Below the pieces are notes generated by a model. The model saw nothing but the letters and a program-made list of their open reading frames with translations, was not told where the DNA came from and did no database searches. From Microbulbifer litoralis (GTDB lineage Bacteria; Pseudomonadota; Gammaproteobacteria; Pseudomonadales; Cellvibrionaceae), in NCBI RefSeq assembly GCF_023634065.1, contig NZ_JALKCV010000003.1, forward strand, positions 186,001-250,000: a stretch of DNA of 64,000 nucleotides, in the 5' to 3' direction. Below are positions 26,813 to 34,245 of this stretch, one piece after another (position 1 is the first letter of the stretch; each line of letters starts with the position of its first letter). The position numbers were made by a program, and so were the translations under genes.

Positions 26813-27979
26813 TCAGGAAGCGTCGGAAGGCTGCAACTTGACCAGGTTGTTCAATACACCTTCCAAGCCGCCATACACGGAGATCTTGTCGATCCGTGCG
26901 GTCACCCGCTCCAATGCCTCGAGTTCCTTCAGGCGCATCAGCACCGGGCTGTTTTCCATCATCTTGGCGGTGTTGTGCAGCGATCGCATGGCCTGGGTTT
27001 CCTCCCGGCGCTTGATCAGGTTGGCTTCGGACTCCTTCTGGGCCTCTACGACCTGGTTCAGGATCTGCTTCATATCGCCCGGCAGGATGATGTCCTTGAC
27101 CCCCACGGTTGCGATTTCGATGCCGTATTCGGCCAGTTTCTCGCGCACGTCCCGGGCGATACCGAGGTTCAGGCTGTCCTTGTCTTCCAGCAGTTCGTCC
27201 AGGCTCTGGGTACCCACGGCTTCGCGCAGGCGCAGCTGTAGTTCGCGGTAGATGAACTCGGCATATTTGCCCAGCTTCATAACGGCCTTTTCCGGGTCCA
27301 GTACCTTGTAGCTGGCGCTCAGGTTGATGCGCAGGCTGACGCGGTCTTTGGTCAGGATTTCCTGGCCGCTGACTTCCACGGTCTGCAGGCGCAGGTCCAC
27401 CAGCTGTACGCCGATGGAGCGGTTGCACTTCCAGAAGCCGTAGCTGCCCGGCACCAGCCGCTGTTCCAGCTTGCCGTTGACGGTCAGCAGGCCCACGTGC
27501 TCGTCCGGCACCTCGACATACTGCACCGCGGAACCGGCGGCCGCGCTTCTGCCCACCCTGGAGCCGCGGCCGAGCAGGCGCACGAGTTTTTCATCGATGG
27601 TGTACTGCTCGCTGATGTCGACGATCTCCACACGCACCTGCTCCACGCCTTTCCACACCGGCAGGAAGCTGCCCGGCGCGAGGATATCCACCAGGCGGCC
27701 GTCGCGGTACAACAGGCCGACCTCGGTGTCGCTCAGGTCGTAGGACTCGATATAAGGTGCCAGCTTTTCCGCCTGGCTGTTGAGCAGGAACTTGGCACTC
27801 AACGCGGCGTTGGCACGCTCGAAAATTACGTTGCTGATATCGTAGCGCTCGACGCGGACATCCCCGCCCAGCTGCAGGATACGGTGGCGGCCCGGCTCGA
27901 GAACGCGGATAAACCGGTTTCTGCGAAACAGGAAGGCGCGCTCGTTATCGGCAATATCAACATTTTTCCATATAAACAC
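26813..27979 (-). CDS. Slipin / SPFH (band 7) protein of the rtc locus
   Basis: 388 residues from the GTG at 27979 (GGAG 7 bases upstream). Residues about 1-190 contain three copies of one motif: ERAFLFRRNRFIRVLEPGRH, EVGLLYRDGRLVDILAPGSF and HVGLLTVNGKLEQRLVPGSY. Each is followed by an aromatic/Arg-rich strand and V-D-I/L. The SPFH core and a helical oligomerisation tail (LREAVGTQSLDELL to KRREETQAMRSLHN) follow. No transmembrane helix is seen, unlike classical slipins. Slipins recur beside bacterial rtcBA and are thought to scaffold the RNA-repair proteins at membranes; that role is inferred. It is the last gene of the rtc transcription unit. Confidence 0.9.
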   Translation of the reverse strand: MFIWKNVDIADNERAFLFRRNRFIRVLEPGRHRILQLGGDVRVERYDISNVIFERANAALSAKFLLNSQAEKLAPYIESYDLSDTEVGLLYRDGRLVDILAPGSFLPVWKGVEQVRVEIVDISEQYTIDEKLVRLLGRGSRVGRSAAAGSAVQYVEVPDEHVGLLTVNGKLEQRLVPGSYGFWKCNRSIGVQLVDLRLQTVEVSGQEILTKDRVSLRINLSASYKVLDPEKAVMKLGKYAEFIYRELQLRLREAVGTQSLDELLEDKDSLNLGIARDVREKLAEYGIEIATVGVKDIILPGDMKQILNQVVEAQKESEANLIKRREETQAMRSLHNTAKMMENSPVLMRLKELEALERVTARIDKISVYGGLEGVLNNLVKLQPSDAS

Positions 27980-28309
27980 TTTACTTCTCCGTCTGTTGAT
28001 TACCCCTGTTCGGTGCGCACGGCGCAGCCTGCGGCCCCATTGGGCCCGGGTAATCGAGGGTGAGGCCCACCCGGAAACGCGGAGGGCGACGGCTTGAACC
28101 GGGCAGGTCGCGCGGCCAGCGGCCGGACCAGCCGTCGTCAGGGGAAGGTGCATGTGCACGCGCCCGATCGGTCGGCGAGTCCGGCTTGGCCGAACAACGT
28201 GCCGGGTTTCCCACCACCGGCGTCCGCGCCCCGGCGCCCTGAGACGCTGAATGCCGTCTCCCCGGGGGGATCCGTTTATCAGCGAATCGGGACCATGGGC
28301 CTCTTACTG
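27980..28309 (-). other. GC-rich untranslated spacer before the slipin gene
   Basis: No coding sequence. On the minus strand it contains a clear hairpin GAGACG/CGTCTC (about 28238-28260) and a CCGGTTCAAGCC T-loop-like sequence near 28095. Long GC-rich dyads around 28030-28060 follow. It probably forms structured leader or intercistronic RNA between the tRNA-like element and the slipin start. Confidence 0.45.
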
Positions 28310-28460
28310 CTTTTGAATGAGGGGATTTGAACCCCAGGCTTTCGCCTTTTCCACATGTCGTTGGGAAAACGAGGTAACTTTGGCAGGACTCGAACCCGCT
28401 ACCCGCCGATTGCTCGGCTGCTCTACCCGATGAGCTACAAAGTTGTGTTCGGGTCATTCC
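28310..28460 (-). ncRNA. Larger structured RNA enclosing the tRNA-like element
   Basis: Minus strand. GAATGA (28454-28459) can pair with TCATTC (28315-28320). Directly before the 3' strand sits a second T-arm, GGGG/CCCC with loop TTCAAAT (28321-28335), stacked as in a tRNA. Between the inner tRNA-like module and this arm are two small hairpins: TCGTT/AACGA and AGGC-GAAA-GCCT (a GNRA tetraloop). The whole is either one nested RNA or two tandem tRNA-like modules, the second degenerate. Ends and promoter are not determined; it may be cut from the rtc transcript. Confidence 0.55.
28373..28444 (-). ncRNA. tRNA-like RNA with GCAA tetraloop instead of an anticodon loop
   Basis: Read on the minus strand, every tRNA element is present in register. 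A 7-bp acceptor AACTTTG/CAAAGTT is followed by T8-A9 and a D-stem GCTC/GAGC with loop ATCGGGTA (A14, G18-G19 and A21 kept). Then come A26, a 5-bp anticodon-position stem GCCGA/TCGGC, and a 5-base variable region. The T-stem GCGGG/CCTGC closes loop TTCGAGT. The anticodon loop is replaced by the four bases GCAA, so no codon can be read. The 3' end continues A-C-C-T, one base short of a CCA tail. It lies between rtcA and the slipin gene in the direction of transcription. Such tRNA mimics are known from Y RNAs in rtc operons. Confidence 0.8.
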
Positions 28461-28664
28461 CCGCTCGGTACACAGCAGGCCAGTGGCCCTTGCGCCGGGC
28501 TGGCATACAGAACCAGCTCCGCTGAACGGACATTGTCCCCAAACTCTTTTACAACCCGCTGCACACGGCAACTGGTCAGTATTCTTTTACCGGCACATCC
28601 CCTGTGCGATCTTTCATCCGGTGATTCTACTTGAGAGGGCGCGCGGTTTGCGACGGCAGCAACG

Positions 28665-29675
28665 CTACACCGTCACGCGCCAGGCGAGTTCGCTTTCCCT
28701 CTCCACTTTTACATCGGCGCCGGTGAACTGCCGTATCACGGCGATGTTCGTCAGCAGGTGCGCGCTGGGCTGCAGCGTCGTGAAGCTACCGCCCTTGCCC
28801 AGCACCATCGGCAGCAACAGCTGGTCGGCCAGGTGTTCGCCCACCGGCACACCGGATTGCAAGTACCGCTTCAGCTCGGTGGCGGCGCGACCGGCTACCC
28901 GTTCGGCACTCAGGCCTTTCTCACCCACTTCCTCGATCACTTCGGTGACCTGCTGCGAGAAAACCCGCAGCGAAACGATATTGCCGGGACCGGCGGACTC
29001 CACTTGCCGCTGGTGCAGTTCTTCGGCTGGCCAGTGGCATTTTTTATGGATCTGCTGCAGTTCCCGCTCGGCGACGTGCGCCGCTATCCGCGCAGACGTC
29101 ACCACGGCTTCCCTTTTCAGCAGATCACCGCGGCTGGTCAGGTGCAGGGGCTGCAGCTGCCGCGCCGGCTGGAGCTGCGCCCGCCAGCGGCCGCCGCCGG
29201 CCGGGTAGAAGCCGAAGCGTTCCAGTGCCACTTGTGCCCGGTATCCCATCCGCGCCATCAGTGGCAGGAAGGCCAGCTGGATAAAGTCGAAGCTGGGCGC
29301 GCTGCCGTTGTGGGTACCGCCCTCCAGGCAGAGCTCACTCTCGCCATCGGCCAGCAGCAGCGGCAGCAGTACCGTCTGGAATACCAGGCTGGTGCTGCCG
29401 GCGGAGCCGATGGCGAGCGGGTATTTTCCCGGCTTTACCCGGCCCGGCTCGAACACCACGTCGGTGGAGCCCAGTGCATCGCCGGTGATCTGCGCATCGC
29501 TGATATCCCGACCGACGCGCAGGCAGGCGAGGTGCTGGCGCAGCAGGCCCGGCTTGCGACGGCCGGCGCGGATGTTCTTGATGCGCACCGGTTGTTGCAG
29601 ACACAGGGACAGCGTCAGCGACGAGCGGAATATCTGGCCGCCGCCTTCACCCTGTGAGCCGTCGATAATCAACAT
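28665..29675 (-). CDS. rtcA: RNA 3'-terminal phosphate cyclase
   Basis: 336 residues, standard RtcA length. RtcA uses ATP to turn RNA 3'-phosphates into 2',3'-cyclic phosphates and can adenylate 5'-phosphates. Family marks are MLIIDGSQGEGGGQIFRSSL at the start, the GGTHNGSAPSFDFIQLAFLP region, ERFGFYPAGGGRWRAQL, and the nucleotidyl-accepting His in GVPVGEHLADQLLLPM. It is transcribed after rtcB from the sigma-54 promoter at 31124-31139, with a 135-bp spacer carrying a small palindrome. Cytosolic. Downstream on the same strand are the tRNA-like RNA and the slipin gene. Confidence 0.96.
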   Translation of the reverse strand: MLIIDGSQGEGGGQIFRSSLTLSLCLQQPVRIKNIRAGRRKPGLLRQHLACLRVGRDISDAQITGDALGSTDVVFEPGRVKPGKYPLAIGSAGSTSLVFQTVLLPLLLADGESELCLEGGTHNGSAPSFDFIQLAFLPLMARMGYRAQVALERFGFYPAGGGRWRAQLQPARQLQPLHLTSRGDLLKREAVVTSARIAAHVAERELQQIHKKCHWPAEELHQRQVESAGPGNIVSLRVFSQQVTEVIEEVGEKGLSAERVAGRAATELKRYLQSGVPVGEHLADQLLLPMVLGKGGSFTTLQPSAHLLTNIAVIRQFTGADVKVERESELAWRVTV

Positions 29676-29810: not shown

Positions 29811-31037
<1,227 letters not shown>

Positions 31038-31123
31038 TGTTCTTTTCCCTGTTCCGATGCGTTGGCGGTGCTGTTCGCGTTTGCGTTGCCCGCTGTTGGC
31101 CCCTCTCATTGCCAGGAAGGTAT

Positions 31124-31139
31124 TGCCAGGAAAGTGCCA
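31124..31139 (-). promoter_or_regulatory. Sigma-54 promoter of rtcB
   Basis: On the minus strand TGGCAC (-24) is followed after 5 bases by TGGCA (-12). The GG and GC elements have exactly the spacing required by RpoN. The expected transcript start is about 31112, some 75 bases before the rtcB start codon. The neighbouring divergent gene encodes the matching sigma-54 activator RtcR. Confidence 0.8.
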
Positions 31140-31286
31140 ACGTTGCGCAAGACGTCAAAAAAAGTTTCAAGTGATTGATTTATAAGAACTTATTTTTTCT
31201 TTAAGGCAACTTATCCACAACTTGTGCAAAAGTCAGATTGCGCATTATCTATCTTTTTCGATAGCAGACTTTTATATTCGATAACC

Positions 31287-32900
31287 ATGAAAACAGTAGC
31301 CATCAGTATTCTCGGCACCACCATGGATCGGCGCGGCAAGGGCAACAAGCGCTGGGACAAGTGGCGGCCGACCGTTTCCATGTTCCAGCACGAGGATCTG
31401 CTGATCGATCGGCTGGAGCTGTTGTTCGACAACCACTCCCAGGGCCTGGCCGACCAGGTGACGGAGGATATCGCCCGCGTGTCGCCGGAGACGGAGGTGG
31501 TGCACCATCGGGTGAATTTCGGCGATCCGTGGGATTTCGAGACGGTGTACAGCCAACTGCTGGATTTCGCCCACGGCTACCGGTTCCGCCCCAACCGGGA
31601 AAATTACCTGGTGCATATCACCACCGGTACCCACGTGGCACAGATCTGTCTCTACCTGCTGACCGAGGCCGGCTACCTGCCCGGCCAGCTGCTGCAGACG
31701 GCGCCGGCAAAGCGCGACAGCAACCTGCCGGGGCAATACCAGGTCATCAACCTGGACCTGTCCAAGTACGACCAGATCGCGTCGCGCTTTCGCAGGGAGC
31801 ACGAGGAGGGCACCGTCTACCTGAAGGGCGGCATCGAGACCAACAACGCCGCCTTCAATCGCATGATCGAGCAGCTGGAAAAAGTCTCCATCCGCTCCAA
31901 CGCGCCCATCCTGATTACCGGCCCCACCGGCGCGGGCAAGACCCAGCTGGCGCAGCGGGTGTACGAACTGCGCAGACAGCGCGGCAAGCTCGAGGGCCGG
32001 CTGGTGGCCATCAACTGCGCCACGCTGAAGGGCGAGAACACCATGTCGGCGCTGTTCGGCCACAAGAAAGGGGCCTTCACCGGCGCTACCGCCGACCGCG
32101 CGGGGCTGCTGAAAGAGGCCCACAAGGGCCTGCTGTTCCTGGACGAGATCGGCGAGCTGGGCCTGGACGAACAGGCGATGCTGCTGCGCGCGATCGAGGA
32201 CAAACGCTTTATCCCGTTCGGCTCCGACCGCGAGGCGAGCAGCGATTTCCAGCTGATTGCCGGCACCAATAAAGACCTGGCACAGAGAGCCCGGGAGGGC
32301 AGCTTCCGCGCCGACCTGCTGGCCCGCATCGACCTGTGGACCTACGAGCTGCCCTCACTGAAGGAGCGGATCGAGGATCTGGAACCGAATATCGATTACG
32401 AGCTGGAGACCTTTTCCAACAGGGCCGGGCACCTGGTCAGTTTCAACAAGGCGGCGCGGCAACGGTACCTCGCCTTCGGCCGCTCAGCGGAGGCCAGCTG
32501 GTCGGCCAATTTCCGCGATCTGAATGCCAGCATCACGCGCATGGGCACGCTCGCGGATGGCGGGCGGATTACCGTCGGCGTAGTCGATGAAGAGATCCGC
32601 CGCCTGAAGCGCAAGTGGCAGGCCTCGACGGATGGCGACGACAATCCCGGGGCGGCGATCGAGAGGGTGCTCGGGGAGGGCAGCAGTGCGGAGATGGATT
32701 ACTACGACCAGCTGAAACTGGCCGCGCTGATCCGGGTCTGCCAAAACGCCAGCTCGATGGCGGAGGCGGGCAGGAAGCTGTTCGATGTGAGCCGGCGGGC
32801 GAAGAAATCGAACAACGACTCACATCGCGTCAGGCAGTTACTGGAGAAGTATGGAATCCGGTTTGAGGAGCTAAAGGAATTTGACCAGACGGTCGCATAA
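31287..32900 (+). CDS. rtcR: RtcR, CARF-domain sigma-54 activator of RNA repair
   Basis: 537 residues. The start at 31287 is chosen because it yields KTVAISILGTTMDRRGKGNK, the known N-terminus; an upstream in-frame ATG at 31224 adds an unconserved tail. Residues 1-180 are the CARF-type sensor, with LVHITTGTHVAQICLYLL, which senses RNA-damage ligands. The AAA+ domain has Walker A GPTGAGKTQLAQ, the sigma-54 contact loop KGAFTGATADRAG and Walker B LLFLDEIGELG. The C-terminal helix-turn-helix region ends with LFDVSRRAKKSNNDSHRVRQ. It diverges from rtcB and should activate the promoter at 31124-31139. Confidence 0.96.
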   Translation: MKTVAISILGTTMDRRGKGNKRWDKWRPTVSMFQHEDLLIDRLELLFDNHSQGLADQVTEDIARVSPETEVVHHRVNFGDPWDFETVYSQLLDFAHGYRFRPNRENYLVHITTGTHVAQICLYLLTEAGYLPGQLLQTAPAKRDSNLPGQYQVINLDLSKYDQIASRFRREHEEGTVYLKGGIETNNAAFNRMIEQLEKVSIRSNAPILITGPTGAGKTQLAQRVYELRRQRGKLEGRLVAINCATLKGENTMSALFGHKKGAFTGATADRAGLLKEAHKGLLFLDEIGELGLDEQAMLLRAIEDKRFIPFGSDREASSDFQLIAGTNKDLAQRAREGSFRADLLARIDLWTYELPSLKERIEDLEPNIDYELETFSNRAGHLVSFNKAARQRYLAFGRSAEASWSANFRDLNASITRMGTLADGGRITVGVVDEEIRRLKRKWQASTDGDDNPGAAIERVLGEGSSAEMDYYDQLKLAALIRVCQNASSMAEAGRKLFDVSRRAKKSNNDSHRVRQLLEKYGIRFEELKEFDQTVA

Positions 32901-33009: not shown

Positions 33010-34163
33010 TTAGCGATCAAACAGATCCAGATAACGGCCAAAGAAAAATACGCGGTTGCGCTGATAGCCTGTTACCTCGTGCAACACCCCGTCATCAACC
33101 ATCTTTTTCAACAGGGCCGACGCGGTCTGGTGACTAACCTCCAGCAGTGCTGCAGCACCATTCGCTGTAATGGCCGGGCGGCGATACAGGTGTCTGAGCA
33201 GGATCTGTGCCTTTTCAGCCCGCTTCCCGTAACCCAGGATGAGTGTATCCATTTCCTGGCGCAGTGCGAGAATCCCCTGAAAGGTTTCCTTGCCTTTGCT
33301 CGCCGTTTCAACCACTGCCGACAGAAAAAAGCGTACCCAATGCCGCATATCATTGGAAACCCGTACCCTGGTCAACGCATCGTAGTAACTGCCGCGGTTG
33401 CGCTCAAAGAAATCCGACAGGTACAGAGAGGGTTTCCTGAGTAATCCTTTGCCGACCAGGTACAGGGTCACCAAAAGGCGTCCGATACGACCATTGCCAT
33501 CCAGAAATGGATGAATGGTTTCAAACTGGTAGTGACTCAGGGCAATACGAATCAACTCTGGAACATTGATATTCTCGTTGTGCCAGAACAATTCCAGATC
33601 GGCCATCAGTGCAGGAACCTGATCCTGATGGGGCGGCACAAAAGCAGCATCCACCAAGCTGCTACCCCCAATCCAGTTCTGGCTGACACGAAACTCGCCG
33701 GGGGTCTTGTGTTCCCCACGAACACCCTGCATCAATATGGCATGGGTCTGCTTCAGCAGGCGATTTGACAACGGCAGTCGTCCCAATTGCGCAATAGCCT
33801 CGTTGATGGCCTGCACATAATTGCGCACCTCCATCCAGTCGTTGCGTTTTCCGGAGCCACTTGCGCGGCATCATCCAGCACCGCTTCGTCCATCTGTGTC
33901 TGGGTGCCCTCGATACGCGATGAAGTATTTGCCTCCTTGGTAATATGCATTTGAATAAAAAGATCCACGTCCGGCACTATCAGGGTGAAAGCGTCCAACT
34001 CCGCCAGAGCGCGGGAAGCTTTCTCTAGCAGGGTATTGATCACCGGATCTTCCCAGTGCCACTCCCGATTGATTGTGACTGGATCAAAGCTTTTGTATTG
34101 ATACTGCTGAATCCAGTTGCCCGCCTCAAAGCTTTCAAATTTTACCGGCACATCCTGATCCAT
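33010..34163 (-). pseudogene. fic: Fic family AMPylase/transferase gene with a one-base frameshift
   Basis: Two overlapping frames together make one Fic protein. The N-terminal part (start ATG 34163, AGGAG upstream) carries the auto-inhibitory helix motif S-x-x-x-E-G in ANTSSRIEGTQTQ. The C-terminal part carries the perfect active-site HPFLDGNGRIGRLL and a winged-helix end. The frames join at a run of four T on the plus strand (33847-33850). One extra A on the coding strand there would restore APEKRNDWMEVRNY, typical of Fic proteins. It is either a real inactivating deletion or a homopolymer sequencing error. Target unknown; it lies right behind rtcR but in the opposite orientation. Confidence 0.85.
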
Positions 34164-34245
34164 CAGTCGACCACTCCTGTTTCGCTCGCCCATTTATTGG
34201 CTGTGAGTTTGCCAGAAGGTTAAGGAGATGTCGTCCGGGGCGCAG

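Follow-up and report, generated by a model that had tools for sequence, protein, structure and literature searches.

The question raised by this locus is what a transfer RNA (tRNA) shape without an anticodon does inside an RNA-repair operon. The locus lies in a stretch of 64,000 nucleotides (nt) of Microbulbifer litoralis (contig NZ_JALKCV010000003.1, positions 186,001 to 250,000; hereafter the window), where a tRNA-like module is encoded on the minus strand between rtcA and the gene of a Band-7 protein, slipin, as the original prediction had placed it. That prediction described a full tRNA shape with the anticodon loop replaced by the tetraloop GCAA on a 5-bp stem and a 3' end reading ACCT instead of ACCA, and the programs agree with it. 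ARAGORN called 28373-28444 on the minus strand as 'tRNA-???' with a two-base anticodon 'ca', and the Rfam family RF00005 matched 28375-28444 with 49.2 bits (gathering threshold 29, E 1.7e-7). The cloverleaf, with a 7-bp acceptor stem, a 4-bp D stem, a 5-bp anticodon stem and a 5-bp T stem, is the minimum-energy fold of the module (-25.3 kcal/mol, z -2.4). The replaced loop is seen in both the ARAGORN call and the fold, and the acceptor is followed by A-CCT, not A-CCA, so that no 3' CCA is encoded. The paired-stem cloverleaf of a decoding tRNA is therefore present and the 7-nt loop with a readable anticodon is absent, which leaves the module unable to decode. RtcR, RtcB, RtcA and the Band-7 protein, all identified with Pfam, place the module in an RtcR/RtcBA context. 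The absence of a Ro60/TROVE gene extends from the window to the whole genome, in which no TROVE domain (PF05731) was found. As described below, the tRNA-like module is one module of a conserved structured larger RNA, and this RNA tracks slipin.

The original prediction treated the module as standing alone, and comparisons with related genomes showed it to be only the middle part of a longer RNA. A query of 375 bases around the module gave long matches in 14 of the 36 other genomes of the genus; one genome from a different family, G052, matched weakly and with interruptions. Sixteen copies are alignable over 257-285 nt. From the 5' to the 3' end, the RNA consists of a unique five-prime domain, the tRNA-like module, a hairpin with a 7-nt loop, a GGCGAAAGCC hairpin and a second T-arm-like hairpin GGGGTTCAAATCCCC. 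The five-prime domain is closed in this copy by the helix GUUUGGG/CCCGAAC and encloses two inner hairpins, CUGG..CCAG and GGCGCA..UGUGU. The hairpin that follows the module resembles an anticodon arm; its loop has 7 nt in 16 of the 16 aligned copies and U at the second position in 10 of them, and it reads CUNNNAA in several relatives. The GGCGAAAGCC hairpin carries a GNRA loop and resembles a long variable arm.

Covariation supports this architecture. RNAalifold on the 16 copies gave 66 pairs, with compensatory change at 36. A separate pair count on the same copies showed 96.2% of the cells paired, compared with 35-43% once the structures were slid; the observed values were not reached by any of 500 shuffles. 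The core of the five-prime domain, compared over 27 copies, shows change on both sides at 20 of 23 pairs and is 90% paired, compared with 35-38% when slid. Compensatory changes had been anticipated in all four stems of the module; they were found in the acceptor, anticodon and T stems, and the D stem is invariant and hence uninformative. Rfam scans of the RNA and its relatives returned only tRNA, opposite-strand tRNA matches and noise. A protein-coding reading of the region was rejected because the copy lengths differ by non-multiples of three and because of the pairing constraint.

Comparison of the 14 Microbulbifer copies, including that of the window, showed constraint nearly everywhere except in the anticodon loop. 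The mean pairwise identity is 0.96 for the acceptor, 0.86 for the D arm, 0.86 for the T arm, 0.67 for the five-prime domain and 0.91 for the last hairpin and T-arm, decreasing to 0.75 for the anticodon stem and to 0.27, near chance, for the anticodon loop. With arms 86-96% identical against a loop of ~27%, the copies retain the shape but not decoding. The loop ranges from 4 to 7 nt, although four of the 14 lengths are ambiguous, since the script assigned a stem of 4 bp to copies that could also form 5 bp around a loop of 6 nt. GCAA is unique to the window among these copies. The proposal of a conserved, purpose-built 4-base loop is thus not supported. GNRA-type loops occur elsewhere in Lysobacter antibioticus (locus L145, GCAA) and, by script, in L115 (G-GCAA-C) and L083 (G-GAAA-C). 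The loop is repeatedly found lost or shortened, namely in most copies from Microbulbifer, at L145 of Lysobacter and at L224 of Burkholderia. At the last of these (Burkholderia multivorans, L224:5675-5744), a tRNA-like element lies ~260 nt upstream of a slipin gene, with an anticodon arm that has a very short loop; the model of the five-prime domain described below gave no match at this element.

A 7-base loop at this locus in close relatives had been named in advance as the sign of a decayed ordinary tRNA gene. Such loops exist in three of the 13 other Microbulbifer copies (G004, G006 and G010) and in many wider relatives, so the ancestor of the module probably had a complete anticodon loop. 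The conclusion attached to that sign does not follow, because conserved domains flank the module on either side, and it is therefore not an ordinary tRNA gene.

Two covariance models were used for wider searches, R1 of the full RNA and R2 of the tRNA-free five-prime domain, the latter using no protein information. R2 was built on the tRNA-free domain because R1 cannot tell the RNA from ordinary tRNAs below ~70 bits; R1 'matches' 369 of 369 genomes of the class, ordinary tRNAs included. The 14 best other R1 loci (L037-L050) were followed up and the weaker L051-L065 were left out. L048 and L050 were dropped by eye as tandem ordinary tRNA genes, and the partial locus L046 was excluded from alignment A6 and from the set of 62 loci used below. 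A degenerate DNA pattern of the five-prime domain fitted 82 stretches in a named genome collection, and R2 confirmed 37 of the 80 listed; the remaining 43 were taken as chance, and some of the 37 repeat loci from other searches. The R2-confirmed loci include Exilibacterium, Alcanivorax, Thiomargarita, Competibacter, Lysobacter and Pseudoxanthomonas, together with three contigs labelled cyanobacterial, which are metagenome-assembled genomes with labels as deposited, unchecked. Two viral contigs fit the DNA pattern and fail R2. A protein-pattern scan with RtcA over genome contigs found no relative.

The genes accompanying the RNA were compared in 48 Microbulbifer genomes. R2 found the RNA in 25 of them (15 in the R2 training set), slipin at an identity of at least 52% is present in 26, and the overlap is 25 (Fisher test, 8e-13). 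Slipin therefore occurs in 25 of the 25 genomes with the RNA and in 1 of the 23 without it. Rtc-type RtcB (identity of at least 84%) is present in 20 of the 48 genomes, 18 of the 25 with the RNA and 2 of the 23 without. RtcA, RtcB and RtcR had been proposed as partners, and in these genomes the RNA tracks slipin better than RtcB. Similar linkage was observed at larger scales. R2 matched 7 of 398 genomes of the phylum (4 outside training, 2 Microbulbifer), all seven upstream of a same-strand slipin gene, and 16 of 390 genomes of the order with 17 matches, of which 16 are upstream of a same-strand slipin gene. Five of the order genomes are in the R2 training set; of the 12 matches outside it, 11 are upstream of slipin. 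The exception is L210, where the sequence ends 1.3 kb past the RNA. Over the 62 loci, a same-strand slipin gene begins ~0.4-1.6 kb downstream of the RNA start in 59, and the three others are L118 and L088, which end ~0.5 kb past the RNA, and L128, a partial RNA match only. The linkage to slipin is thus near-perfect, and the association with RNA repair is frequent, not universal.

Outside Microbulbifer, the position of the module, here termed the slot, contains one or two tRNA-like modules whose identity varies by lineage. Of 83 slot modules, 12 encode CCA, compared with 105 of the 115 remaining tRNAs at those loci; these counts are not fully de-duplicated. Nine loci have at least five extra tRNAs (L156, L150, L086, L163, L089, L070, L208, L125 and L124), with rtcB in view in some, and up to 23 extra tRNAs lie upstream in Exilibacterium (L156). 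A family member in Photobacterium (L225:4591-4847) has two tandem tRNA-like modules and an R1 score of 80.9 bits.

These comparisons are consistent with a reading to which we would give almost an even chance, that the tRNA-like module belongs to the RNA subunit of a slipin ribonucleoprotein (RNP), here within the RtcR/RtcBA operon, and presents a tRNA shape. RtcR is activated by tRNA fragments with a cyclic phosphate, according to the available part of PMC7790460. No sigma-70-like promoter was found within 27900-28700 and a sigma-54-like match, TGGCACTTTCCTGGCA, precedes rtcB, so the RNA is probably transcribed together with the rtc operon. The RtcR sensor, switched on by broken tRNAs, would then have the RNA made with the rtcBA operon. 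A slipin oligomer would hold the RNA, most likely by the unique five-prime domain, and the slot would offer a tRNA-shaped elbow and acceptor for docking. We infer that the particle would gather tRNA-handling enzymes (RtcB, RtcA and perhaps RlaP in some hosts) or tRNA fragments. Decoding would not be needed for this, so the anticodon loop would be free to shrink, and its loss would hide the RNA from anticodon nucleases. A structured RNA with a soluble-looking slipin would be a concrete, testable partner for how RtcB repair systems gather substrates.

Several observations weigh against the RNP reading. Seven Microbulbifer genomes have the RNA and slipin without rtc-type RtcB, and at the 62 loci RtcB is in view at 28 and RtcR at 15 (views of 3-12 kb, many incomplete). 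With RtcB at fewer than half of these loci and seven genomes lacking it, the RNA is less tightly linked to RNA repair than to slipin. In one genome (G805), rtcB and slipin are ~165 nt apart and the RNA is absent, so slipin may work without it. The slots of many lineages contain ordinary anticodons, possibly translated, CAU being the most frequent (21 of 83 ARAGORN modules). Moreover, linkage by itself cannot separate an RNP partner from a cis leader that regulates slipin.

The RNA could instead act as a decoy, bait or ligand. Anticodon nucleases, RtcR or RtcB would recognise its tRNA-like body or the free 7-nt hairpin, which would tune the response, for instance by competitive inhibition of a nuclease or of RtcR. 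The invariant loop length of that hairpin and the switching of slot tRNA identity between lineages fit such a role. However, the loop that a nuclease would cut is gone or shrunk in most Microbulbifer copies and in L145 and L224, and the RNA follows slipin more closely than rtcB, which makes a decoy or ligand unlikely. We give the same chance to a cis element: the RNA would be either a structured leader or a punctuation signal for RNase P/Z, through which the operon transcript is cut and the expression of slipin set, and the tRNA shape would serve processing only. The same-strand position upstream of slipin at 59 of the 62 loci, the general use of tRNA shapes as processing signals and the lack of CCA in most slot modules agree with this explanation, but the distance from the RNA start to slipin ranges over ~0.4-1.6 kb, and the large covarying flanking domains and the two-module loci exceed the needs of a cleavage signal. 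That the module is a functional or relic tRNA, a real spare of a stress tRNA array decayed in Microbulbifer, is very improbable: many lineages do show a real anticodon in a loop of 7 nt, nine loci carry at least five extra tRNAs and an inducible Anabaena tRNA array is co-regulated with rtcB and a slipin (PMC10272220, available part), but under neutral decay a drifting loop would not be accompanied by arms held at 86-96% identity and by covariation of the anticodon-stem pairs, and CCA is rare in the slot and usual in the neighbouring tRNAs.

The slipin protein of the RNP reading was further analysed. It has no membrane-spanning segment by hydropathy (maximum Kyte-Doolittle mean over 19 residues, 0.99). 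Three beta repeats, at residues 1-56, 72-128 and 148-202, are homologous to one another (pairwise hhalign E 5e-14, 5e-16 and 5e-13), and the predicted model contains the repeats, an SPFH domain and a long helix (predicted local distance difference test, pLDDT, 81; predicted template modelling score, pTM, 0.59). The 50 best Foldseek matches include stomatin, HflK/C, prohibitin, erlin, flotillin and the major vault protein (MVP). Chains of MVP align to the full slipin model with template modelling (TM) scores of 0.37-0.41, a best E of 5.7e-10 and a root mean square deviation of ~14-15. Like slipin, the protein of the eukaryotic vault (MVP, vault RNA, and TEP1 with TROVE) is of the SPFH type with N-terminal beta repeats, and the likeness would extend to a cognate small RNA only if the slipin RNP reading holds. 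In contrast, the slipin repeats alone gave no significant match to MVP (best E 0.16), and vault RNA is absent among the four Rfam matches up to E 10. The Pfam family MVP_shoulder matched 2 of 41 slipin members weakly (best E 0.022). The vault likeness of the modelled slipin is thus a lead, not a result.

A bolder generalisation would be a widespread bacterial RNP, in which triple-repeat slipin forms an SPFH cage, soluble and vault-like, that holds an RNA with an interchangeable slot and acts as a tRNA-repair or sorting station, parallel to Ro60/Y RNA and resembling a miniature vault, the slot tRNA being swapped or its loop blunted according to tRNA-cutting threats; we regard this as a long shot, less probable than the decoy or the cis element and still above the spare tRNA. 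If true, the slipin RNP would be a second RNA-based module around RNA repair beside Ro60/Y RNA and a possible bacterial comparison for vaults.

Related biology may be easy to test at a slipin-RlaP locus of E. coli. In one record, a slipin gene (44% identity) and an RlaP gene (PF10127) lie between yjbD and lysC, and of 5426 complete E. coli genomes, 1617 (~30%) carry most of this stretch. An element of 186 nt upstream of the pair (L223:5680-5860), present in 1624 of the 5426 genomes, contains a sigma-54-like site and a T-arm-like hairpin, and is unannotated among the 20 records listed. Neither R1 nor R2 matched it. In Citrobacter (L227), rtcR is located ahead of the slipin-RlaP pair.

Among systems already described, Burroughs and Aravind reportedly noted in 2016 that SPFH/Band-7 modules of RNA-repair systems have a new tRNA-like molecule as their cognate. 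As so described, their RNA and the present one would be alike in the link to a Band-7 gene and in the RNA-repair locus. No description of the present RNA was found in the portions of the open-licence literature searched. The Y RNA YrlA of rsr-yrlBA-rtcBA operons also contains a tRNA-like module, and it too is encoded within an RtcR/RtcBA operon (PMC7790460, available part). It differs in its setting, since the Microbulbifer genome here has no TROVE protein, and the Y RNA model RF01053 reached noise level only (14.6 bits, gathering threshold 80, E 6.7). In Anabaena, the available parts of PMC10272220 and PMC9938897 describe an L-array/trn operon in which a tRNA array, rtcB and the slipin gene alr0740 belong to one stress regulon; there, however, the genes are dispersed and the repressor TrcR takes the place of RtcR. 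In Pseudomonas aeruginosa PaFlo8, an SPFH gene lies among rtcA, rtcB and rtcR, as here, and the available part of PMC13086221 mentions no RNA.

Features of the locus in the window, with the evidence for each
Feature	Position	Strand	Evidence
rtcR, CARF-AAA-HTH activator	31224-32900	plus	Pfam RtcR E 1.6e-82; PADLOC RtcR 817 bits
Sigma-54-like promoter TGGCACTTTCCTGGCA upstream of rtcB	31124-31139	minus	pattern match only, loosened -12 motif
rtcB, RNA ligase	29811-31109	minus	Pfam RtcB E 4.7e-131
rtcA, RNA 3'-phosphate cyclase	28665-29675	minus	Pfam RTC E 1.8e-75
Entire conserved RNA, extent as in the alignment	28296-28552	minus	16-copy alignment; R1 245 bits (copy in R1 training)
Unique five-prime domain	28447-28544	minus	covariation over 27 copies; R2 E 1.1e-23 (copy in R2 training)
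tRNA-like module	28373-28444	minus	ARAGORN; RF00005 E 1.7e-7; minimum-energy fold
Anticodon arm, 5-bp stem GCCGA/UCGGC, loop GCAA at 28410-28413	28405-28418	minus	sequence and fold
Second hairpin, anticodon-arm-like, 7-nt loop TTTCCCA	28358-28372	minus	helix 9, 100% of cells paired
GGCGAAAGCC hairpin with GNRA loop, resembling a long variable arm	28337-28346	minus	helix 10
Second T-arm-like hairpin GGGGTTCAAATCCCC	28321-28335	minus	helix 11
Slipin	26813-27979	minus	Pfam Band_7 E 8.5e-32

At L028, L031, L033 and L213, the rtcA matches are in pieces or part-length, and the RNA and slipin look intact. A second slipin locus of G022 (L222) has a slipin gene with an internal stop codon beside an rtcR fragment, and no RNA match was found there. 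Within 33010-34193 of the window, a gene for a Fic/DOC family protein with a MarR-type domain lies beside rtcR, and an open frame next to this gene, at 33753-34193, may encode the N-terminal part of the protein.
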